From the IMG/VR virus record IMGVR_UViG_3300012000_002412, positions 62,001-126,000 of that record: a stretch of DNA of 64,000 nucleotides. One strand, written 5' to 3'. Below, piece after piece: positions 62,038 through 64,000 of this stretch (the first letter of the stretch is position 1; each line of letters opens with the position of its first letter). The stretch is from a virus. The notes under the pieces are model-generated. The model saw nothing but the letters and a program-made list of their open reading frames with translations. It was not told where the DNA came from and did no database searches. A program made the position numbers and the translations under genes.

Positions 62038-62760
62038 CTATTTCAATAGTTCTACTTTTCTTAAATCTGAGTTTTTTCCAAACCAAATTTCAAGTGATAG
62101 CTTCGTAGCCTCGTCTTTTGTAATTAAGGTCATTTTTGGGTTATTAATAATATCTTGATACTCGTCATCGACAAGTGCCGCTAAACCTTTTTTATACTTT
62201 ATTTCCCACTGTTTGACATCATTTGTTTTTTCCCATTCATTATACTCTGCTTGGGTATAAAAAAGTAATTTCTTTTTGGTTTTTGATTTTGGTATAGCAA
62301 CTACAATTGGAGTTTCTACTTTCCAAATCATTTTTCTATCAAACATATCCGGCCAATATTTGTAAAAAAAGTTAATGAGCAGACCAGCAATCGAGTTACC
62401 GTCTGCGTCAGCGTCAACGTAAAAAAGAATTCTACCGTATCTAAGGTCTTTGAGAGTAATTTCTTGGCCCAGTTTTAATCCAATCGATGCCATTAAATTA
62501 ACCACTTCGTCATTTCCGACCAGTTTTTGATTGGTCATCTCTGAAACATTCACGAATTTTCCTTTAAGTGCAAAAGCACCCATTGTTTCTGGTGTTCTGT
62601 ATTTTCTGAAAGCCGAAATTGCCGAATTATGAGATACGAGACCATTGCTTAACAGAAAAGATTGATCAACATCAACTGATATGTCAACCATGTTCACGTA
62701 CTCATTTGTGATATCAATTGAATCTATATCTATAAGTTCTAAAAAATTCTCTACTATCAT
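62038..62760 (-). CDS. Type II topoisomerase large-subunit C-terminal half, fused to a split-intein C-fragment
   Basis: A 240-aa protein. Residues 1-45 are an intein C-fragment ending 'LLSNGLVSHN', with Ser46 as the first extein residue. The extein begins 'SAISAFRKYRTPETMGAFALKGK' and contains 'FYVDADADGNSIAGLLIN', the TOPRIM DxDxDG metal motif (T4 gp39/GyrB type). The split point is right after the TOPRIM Glu-Gly motif (EGxSA). The N-terminal half must lie beyond the window. Its ATG overlaps the TGA of the homing endonuclease gene (AAATGATAG). Confidence 0.92.
   Translation of the reverse strand: MIVENFLELIDIDSIDITNEYVNMVDISVDVDQSFLLSNGLVSHNSAISAFRKYRTPETMGAFALKGKFVNVSEMTNQKLVGNDEVVNLMASIGLKLGQEITLKDLRYGRILFYVDADADGNSIAGLLINFFYKYWPDMFDRKMIWKVETPIVVAIPKSKTKKKLLFYTQAEYNEWEKTNDVKQWEIKYKKGLAALVDDEYQDIINNPKMTLITKDEATKLSLEIWFGKNSDLRKVELLK
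62626..62760 (-). other. Split-intein C-terminal fragment (IntC)
   Basis: A 45-aa stand-alone C-fragment at the start of the topoisomerase half gene. It carries the block-F pattern (VDISVDVDQSF), penultimate His and terminal Asn, followed by Ser+1. Length and start Met match naturally split phage inteins (gp41-1, gp41-8, NrdJ-1 types). Confidence 0.88.
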
Positions 62761-64000
62761 TTATCAATATTATTTTTTATAAATTCCAAACACTTCTCTA
62801 ATTTATTTTCCTCATCTGACCAAATCTCTAGAACCCTGAATCCATTTGCTTTTGCCGTTTCTATTTTATCTTGTTGTTTTTTAAACGCTATTTCAGGAGT
62901 AATACTTATATCAAATGGATTTGTCCAAGTTGAATTTTCATTTTTTGGATGATACAAAACTCCATTGTATTCAATGATGATTTTCTTACTTCTTATTGTA
63001 AAATCATAGAAATAAATTTTATCACTATCTTTTATGAAATATTCTTGTTTATTTGGTTTCCCTATACAGATATCAGAAATATCTATATTTAATTTACTGG
63101 TTAAAATATCTATAAGTGGATTAAAAATCTTTAATGACTCTTTGGATGCGACACAAAAAGGAACTGTTACTTTTTCTAACCATTGGTGATAAATTTTAGT
63201 TGCGGTTTCAATATCGCCGTATTTTTTCAATAAATTATCAATTGTAATAGCTCGTGATTTATTTATTTTTTCTTTTTGTGGATTTGAGTCAAAGGTTTTT
63301 CTATACTTATCAACTCTTATTTTATGTTTTTCCAATCCTACTTTTTCACCAAATTTATTAATCAAGTTACTAATTGAGTTATTTACTTTAGATAATCTAT
63401 ATTCATATTCGGTTATTGCTGATTCTAAATCACCATTATTTTTCTTAATGAAGAAATCCAAAGACATTGAATCTTTTTTATTTGATACTTCCTGGAATAA
63501 TTTAATTCCCAAATCTTCTCCATATTTTTGTATATATCCTTCTCTACTATTTGATAAAGAAATTTTAGATATGTGTTCTAAATATTTTTGTCTACCTAAT
63601 TCCTCTCCATATTTTTTTATATAGTTATCAACGGATCTAGATTGAAACTCTTTGTAAGAATTTTCAGAATTATGATTTTCTTTATAGAATGGACTTCCAT
63701 TATTATTTTTTAGTAATATTTTTGCCTCTTCCAATGATACTTTATTAACCAATGATATGAATTCAAATGAATTGGGATTCATTTTTATACCTTGACAATG
63801 TTCATTTTCTCCATAGCAATAAATTAGTTTTTTATATGAAAATCCTTTTATTTTAATTTGACTTTTGTTGTTTATTTCAACATGTATATTTACAGGTGGG
63901 TAACCAGAATTACAAACTCTACACTTTTCTATATCAAAACCCAGATAATCCAAATATTTTCCTATCGGGATTTTGAGTTTTCTTCTTATTGATACTTTTA
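62757..64000 (-). CDS. Vsr-like homing endonuclease between split topoisomerase halves (5' end outside window)
   Basis: The frame is open to base 64000, so the TTG at 63953 is not the real start. Visible parts: a zinc-ribbon-like N-terminus (CRVC ... CYGENEHC), at least five 'IKKYGEELGRQKY'-type repeats (~120-270) and a C-terminal nuclease core 'YFYDFTIRSKKIIIEYNGVLYHP' and 'GFRVLEIWSDEE'. This matches the Vsr-like (EDxHD) homing endonucleases of phage 'fractured genes'. The core resembles that of the free-standing enzyme at 23795. Confidence 0.85.
   Translation of the reverse strand, partial: KVSIRRKLKIPIGKYLDYLGFDIEKCRVCNSGYPPVNIHVEINNKSQIKIKGFSYKKLIYCYGENEHCQGIKMNPNSFEFISLVNKVSLEEAKILLKNNNGSPFYKENHNSENSYKEFQSRSVDNYIKKYGEELGRQKYLEHISKISLSNSREGYIQKYGEDLGIKLFQEVSNKKDSMSLDFFIKKNNGDLESAITEYEYRLSKVNNSISNLINKFGEKVGLEKHKIRVDKYRKTFDSNPQKEKINKSRAITIDNLLKKYGDIETATKIYHQWLEKVTVPFCVASKESLKIFNPLIDILTSKLNIDISDICIGKPNKQEYFIKDSDKIYFYDFTIRSKKIIIEYNGVLYHPKNENSTWTNPFDISITPEIAFKKQQDKIETAKANGFRVLEIWSDEENKLEKCLEFIKNNIDK

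Follow-up and report, generated by a model that had tools for sequence, protein, structure and literature searches.

Anatomy of the Locus

The stretch of DNA analysed here (the window) comprises 64,000 nucleotides, positions 62001-126000 of the 165,275-bp IMG/VR virus record IMGVR_UViG_3300012000_002412, and its far end carries the second half of a gene for the large subunit of a type II topoisomerase (T4 gp39/GyrB type). This is very probably a fractured phage gene, the product of which is spliced in trans by a split intein and the break of which has been spread by endonuclease homing. The locus is designated G000; L002 is the adjoining stretch of the same record, and the remaining L-numbers denote other loci retrieved. 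On one strand, the gene order is the topoisomerase N-half with the intein N-fragment (IntN), a free-standing endonuclease open reading frame (ORF), and the intein C-fragment (IntC) with the topoisomerase C-half (Table 1).

The IntC has the sequence MIVENFLELIDIDSIDITNEYVNMVDISVDVDQSFLLSNGLVSHN (45 amino acids (aa)) and is followed by SAISAFRKYR...; downstream of it, Toprim, TOPRIM_C, and phrog_543 (topoisomerase II large subunit; E=1.9e-57, the match beginning at profile position 445) all match the C-half. The complete endonuclease ORF encodes 439 aa, 413 of them inside the window, and lies at L002:2758-4077(-), that is, record positions 124757-126076. A 43-bp gap separates it from the N-half, which starts with GTG, ends in LFEGD|CLHEDTLIRII... 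(the bar marks the break), and has its own TAG stop after the 162-aa IntN. Each topoisomerase half is present once in the record. The original prediction, drawn from the window alone, held that the C-half opens with a 45-aa intein C-fragment, that its ATG overlaps the TGA of the gene upstream, and that an N-half ending in EG plus an IntN with Cys1 would be found beyond position 64000. All of this was borne out, the C-half by the SHN|SAISAF junction and a match of TIGR01443 over cutoff, and the sole N-half of the record by an IntN with Cys1. An in-frame join of endonuclease and intein was looked for as well, and there is none: the frame of the endonuclease ORF differs from those of both halves. 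Because stops and this out-of-frame ORF lie between the halves, the element is not an ordinary contiguous intein.

Table 1. Coordinates of the features of the fractured topoisomerase locus (window scale unless stated otherwise).
Feature	Coordinates	Strand	Basis
C-half of the topoisomerase II large subunit, 240 aa: IntC followed by the TOPRIM C-extein	62038..62760	-	profile matches
IntC, 45 aa, ending SHN ahead of +1 Ser	62626..62760	-	TIGR01443 over cutoff, conserved residues
C-extein, 195 aa, opening SAISAFRKYR (second half of TOPRIM EGDSA motif)	62041..62625	-	phrog_543, TOPRIM_C
ATGA overlap of endonuclease stop TGA and C-half start ATG	62757..62760	-	tcat on + strand
Predicted EDxHD/Vsr-type homing endonuclease ORF	62757..64000, running on to record 126076 (= window 64076)	-	
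Endonuclease catalytic domain, residues ~331-439 (E345, D358, E369, H376)	62760..63086	-	alignment, Foldseek
Four invariant endonuclease cysteines (C52, C55, C87, C94), N-terminal region	63795..63923	-	alignment
Topoisomerase N-half, 581 aa	L002:4121-5866 = record 126120-127865 = window-scale 64120-65865	-	beyond window
IntN, 162 aa	window-scale 64123-64608	-	beyond window end

Insertion Site

The break separates Asp from Ser in the EGDSA motif of TOPRIM (EGD|SA), in agreement with the earlier assignment to the EGxSA motif. The joined exteins read FEGD|SAISAF, exactly as in the uninterrupted relatives, where FEGDSAISAF runs across the site, and the insertion is likewise precise at the DNA junctions. 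FEGDSA is unbroken across the junction in 26 close relatives, most of them 72-87% identical over the C-extein, and EGD[S/A]A occupies the site in 33 uninterrupted relatives, distant ones included. In type IIA topoisomerases, the Glu of EGDSA coordinates metal.

The residue preceding the intein (position -1) is D in all 33 uninterrupted genes scored and L, N, M, or E in 8 of the 23 filled ones (Fisher p 0.0003, loci counted as independent of phylogeny). Asp at -1 is generally considered unfavourable for splicing and promotes side reactions of inteins; the equivalent change in GyrB, D426N, is viable. Replacement at -1 may therefore improve splicing at a tolerable cost to the enzyme. The loss of the otherwise invariant EGD Asp in eight filled exteins appears to be a new feature.

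Several loci depart from this scheme. In L090 (LR756504.1), the uninterrupted allele reads EGDAA; its Ala at +1 is incompatible with the present intein, and the allele might represent a resistant target site. The C-half of L087 (3497-4873) contains a further break, in which a different split intein occupies the DxDxD metal motif (ANDAD|CLYENT ... SHN|CDGAHI), so that this subunit is encoded in three pieces and would require two splices. A second break of the C-half is also found in L053/L083, L082, and L084, with the shared tail xGDxYxIxxDGxxxxxNENDxIxxxxxW...L, followed in L053 by another EDxHD endonuclease; here an intein may be split in an atypical manner, or the break may contain no intein.

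Intein Fragments

The signature of class 1 inteins is complete at G000, consisting of Cys1, the block-B residues S63..H66, H44-N45 of IntC, and the +1 Ser. IntC scores 17.4 bits against TIGR01443 (intein_Cterm; cutoff 15.6), a family that also matches the IntCs of several relatives, and is 80-82% identical to its nearest relatives; in an alignment of 12 loci, its H44 and N45 and the following +1 Ser-Ala do not vary. Across 22 IntNs, no columns other than C1 and H66 are invariant. TIGR01445 matches 9 of these 22 (best E 1.4e-7), the best sequence match of the intein in the PDB is the gp41-1 intein (E 0.0046), and the top Foldseek matches of IntN are Hint folds, namely, hedgehog, gp41-1, and the Prp8 intein (probability 0.97-0.98, E 0.007-0.03). 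The ratio of nonsynonymous to synonymous substitution rates (dN/dS), where it could be computed, is ~0.05-0.10 in IntN and 0.08-0.09 in IntC, with dS near saturation; both fragments are under purifying selection.

Residues 48-100 and 101-162 of IntN are mutually homologous (hhalign probability 98, E 1.8e-13; reversed control empty), and AlphaFold predicts the same strand order in both modules (predicted local distance difference test 82.8; predicted template modelling score (pTM) 0.42), from which it follows that block B is tandemly duplicated. The duplication is present in 21 of the 22 aligned IntNs, the duplicated forms being 154-172 aa long, and appears to be a new feature. The catalytic His is retained in copy 1 and absent from copy 2 in several loci (e.g., L047, L069, L072, L081, and L084), while L085 is devoid of copy 2 entirely, with an IntN of 101 aa. 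Since copy 1 alone preserves the catalytic His and L085 lacks the second copy, the latter would have a structural or accessory role.

Endonuclease

The catalytic domain of the endonuclease resembles I-Bth0305I (3r3p; Foldseek probability 0.98, TM 0.61 over target) and E. coli Vsr (1vsr; probability 0.95), with weak Foldseek E-values of ~0.1-0.2. The fold probability of the model, together with E345, D358, E369, and H376, which are invariant among 12 aligned endonucleases, supports the predicted identity as a Vsr-like EDxHD enzyme and with it the earlier reading of this gene. The G000 endonuclease scored above cutoff in no curated family, and searching the PDB sequences with a profile of the endonuclease gave nothing relevant. 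The N-terminal region, termed the chassis, is predicted to be elongated and to bind DNA; four cysteines in it (C52, C55, C87, and C94), invariant in the alignment, probably form a zinc site. With a dN/dS of ~0.25-0.29, the endonuclease is under purifying selection.

The same chassis is combined with other nuclease domains elsewhere. In LR756500, L069, and L072 (E 1e-61 to 1e-66), it precedes an HNH-like C-terminus, a label given by motif with no call from Pfam, and in L053, L077, and L079 (E 1e-39 to 1e-49), it precedes a third type of C-terminus. EDxHD genes or their remnants also stand free just upstream of the topoisomerase (L004:2615-3790, L036:2545-3690, L027/L028:3515-3775), in intein-less (L004) as well as in fractured (L036) loci.

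Family of Fractured Loci

Counting G000, the fractured loci for which both halves were recovered number at least 23, all distinct and all broken at the same residue, with topoisomerases diverging by up to 73%. Most of them have an intact endonuclease; L035 and L060 retain a decayed remnant of it, and L052, L081, and L084 have none. In these last five loci, both intein halves are intact. Among the loci returned, no contiguous intein occurs at the site.

Between L035 and L036, the intein is 79% identical versus 47% for the extein; between G000 and L036, the values are 74% and 43%. The extein of L036 flips from L090/L059-like to L035-like ~60 codons upstream of the junction, a sharp switch as co-conversion would produce. 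On an extein tree, made by a quick method and with some long branches, the filled and empty states need at least 7 changes, and the filled G000 groups with the empty L004 and L009. The contrast between intein and extein, the co-conversion breakpoint, and the nested filled allele support horizontal homing; a vertical signal is also present, with intein and extein distances correlating overall (Mantel r 0.61).

The commonest junction, EGDCLxEDT, had no match in a prokaryote genome collection of 84,980 species, and the pattern EGD|CFxGDT had six matches there, none of them a GyrB; the search covered these two junction sequences. The 462-kb uncultured phage LR756500.1 (L048/L061, 158000-172000) has fractured genes for both topoisomerase subunits: the break in the large subunit lies at EGL|S and is accompanied by an HNH-like endonuclease, and that in the gp52 subunit lies at YHHGD|C...HN|SALNQ, its halves flanking a 301-aa EDxHD endonuclease. 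In L055/L059, the IntC-bearing C-half is fused with the gp52 medium subunit in a single ORF of ~717 aa. The topoisomerase relatives include phages of 385-642 kb, and the 165-kb record may thus be a piece of a larger phage.

Intergenic Region and Expression

The stop/start overlap between endonuclease and C-half recurs in the same or nearly identical form in most relatives that retain an endonuclease, and the ATGA arrangement suggests that the two genes would be translationally coupled. The DNA between IntN and the endonuclease is similar to the target DNA, mostly as an inverted copy (combined p 7e-8 versus shuffles; the loci are not independent). In G000, such a stretch lies just before L002 4121 (window-scale ~64077-64119). 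Inverted copies of the FEGD target follow directly after the IntN stop, for example, ATCACCTTCAAA in L036/L037, and L047 also carries a direct copy reading IFVVEGDSA. The sequence EGDSI at the IntN end of L046 was considered as a further target copy and found to be not above chance.

According to folding, a hairpin upstream of the endonuclease ATG sequesters the ribosome-binding site in L047, L053, L077, L079, and L087, less cleanly in L068; the hairpin of G000 is degenerate. Several of these hairpins contain TATAAATA, the T4 late-promoter consensus, or a similar AT-rich late-promoter-like sequence; in the window, TATAAATA occurs 24 times versus 13.3 expected from shuffles. I-TevI of T4 and its relatives have the same hairpin arrangement over the ribosome-binding site of the endonuclease (PMC2988022). 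The target-like DNA was set aside as a remnant of the homing site, the stretch belonging to the ribosome-binding-site hairpin in the folded relatives. Probably it is part of such a hairpin and possibly an I-TevI-like operator.

Proposed Mechanism and Alternatives

In the proposed scenario, the two precursors would associate via IntN and IntC, and trans-splicing through Cys1, block-B His66, the penultimate His and the Asn, and the +1 Ser would yield an unbroken TOPRIM domain. The endonuclease would cut alleles that lack the intein, at or close to their EGDSA codons, with the predicted neighbourhood GAGGGAGAC|TC, and repair would copy IntN, endonuclease, and IntC plus flanks into the cut allele. 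Trans-splicing and the cleavage of empty alleles are activities that we infer. Imprecise loss of the insertion would be lethal because it sits in an essential catalytic motif; after decay of the endonuclease, the break could persist, frozen as an endonuclease-free split-intein gene. Beyond the single locus, we favour, with reasonable though not high confidence, the reading that one split-intein lineage with a duplicated block-B module homes repeatedly into one topoisomerase II residue of very divergent phages, with EDxHD, HNH-like, or third-type nuclease domains exchanged and then lost on one chassis, leaving permanently split, splicing-dependent topoisomerases.

Some observations weigh against this scenario. 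The match of the G000 IntN to Pfam Intein_splicing is weak (E 0.0018, below cutoff), the IntN model reaches a pTM of 0.42 and has weak fold matches (E at least 0.007), the -1 Asp that is held to disfavour splicing has been replaced in 8 of 23 filled loci, and no near-identical pair of filled and empty alleles was found, the nearest empty allele being ~80% identical in DNA. If the gene had been split merely by a free-standing endonuclease in the style of mobA in T4 genes 39/60, the halves would be separate subunits and the intein pieces non-splicing relics. The T4 topoisomerase is thought to be functional in pieces after mobA insertion (PMC2988022), and L053, L082, and L084 have a second C-half break without a recognised standard intein. 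Such a reading is nevertheless very improbable, as the catalytic residues of the intein are invariant in the aligned loci, both intein fragments are under purifying selection and are retained in relatives without endonuclease, and the present break bisects EGDSA itself, ~31 residues upstream of the T4 break.

It would also be conceivable that the split intein is now mainly vertical and conditional, for example, in timing topoisomerase assembly, with the endonuclease as regulated cargo and homing not the main cause of persistence. The distance correlation, the five loci that are still split but have no functional endonuclease, and the hairpins hiding the endonuclease ribosome-binding site in several relatives, some containing TATAAATA, as in T4 endonucleases (PMC2988022), would fit such a view. 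The clear transfer in L036, the nesting of the filled G000 allele among empty ones, and the intact G000 endonuclease under purifying selection make it very improbable. Finally, G000 is known from metagenomic contigs only, which raises the question of a sequencing or assembly error that artificially frameshifted a contiguous intein with its endonuclease. Mis-assembly is unlikely since a second contig, IMGVR_UViG_3300008962_002324, is 100% identical across the locus over 7761 bp; moreover, the three-ORF layout with its stop/start overlaps recurs in many divergent contigs, none of the returned loci holds a contiguous version at the site, and the endonuclease has its own start, in relatives also its own ribosome-binding-site hairpin. 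An artefact can, hence, practically be dismissed, and homing of a trans-spliced fractured gene is retained as the best explanation.

Implications

The origin of natural split inteins is an open question, for which fractured genes are a proposed intermediate. More than 20 loci at one residue cover every stage (empty, intact endonuclease, swapped nuclease, remnant, and no endonuclease), by which the idea becomes testable on one enzyme. As the break bisects the metal-binding motif of the topoisomerase, splicing could be scored by topoisomerase activity, and comparison of the duplicated block B with the natural 101-aa single-module IntN of L085 allows a direct experiment on the role of the extra module. 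In addition, the family supplies many candidate split inteins. If the single-lineage reading is true, the whole path from a mobile fractured gene to an endonuclease-free split intein would be visible at a single site.

Comparison with Known Systems

Inteins are also found in the homologous cellular subunit, GyrB, of bacteria (e.g., Synechocystis); unlike the present element, these are contiguous. Their insertion point is EGDSAGG|. A cellular GyrB intein at the phage site is not supported by the genome collection, with no GyrB among the EGD|CFxGDT matches and no match at all for EGDCLxEDT, which is consistent with a different insertion point in GyrB. The GyrB intein of Desulfonema is a mini-intein of 123 aa (PMC6390638).

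The topoisomerase genes 39/60 of T4 are split by mobA (PMC2988022) and thus concern the same enzyme, likewise split by an endonuclease gene. In contrast to G000, T4 has no intein, its endonuclease is of the HNH type, and its break lies ~31 residues further downstream, so that a T4-type break is ruled out; the match of the gp60-type phrog_7229 begins at residue 76 of the C-half. With the type EDxHD homing endonuclease I-Bth0305I (3r3p), the present enzyme shares the Vsr-like catalytic domain and probably an elongated N-terminal region that binds DNA; it differs in lying between two intein fragments, in its four invariant cysteines, and in a chassis that elsewhere bears HNH-like or other nuclease domains.

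The closest likeness is with the fractured genes that Dassa et al. reportedly described in 2009, in which eight gene types are said to carry split inteins (gp41-1, gp41-8, NrdJ-1, and IMPDH-1 among them) together with Vsr-related (EDxHD) endonucleases. The original prediction had placed the locus with this type, and the layout fits the type: the enzyme is divided between two ORFs on one strand, the first of which ends and the second of which begins with an intein fragment, the EDxHD endonuclease ORF stands free between them, unfused to the intein, and the host gene encodes a conserved enzyme of DNA metabolism in a phage context. As a possible difference from this type, the host gene is here the topoisomerase II large subunit; in addition, the endonuclease runs from intact through swapped to absent, and the IntN, at 154-172 aa with a duplicated block-B module, is longer than that of gp41-1. 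A literature search, with the 2009 gene list outside the comparison, returned no reported topoisomerase fractured gene. Possibly new, within the same bounds for the host gene and its site, are therefore the fractured topoisomerase itself, an IntN with block B in duplicate, nuclease domains that can be exchanged, and the full series of stages at one site.
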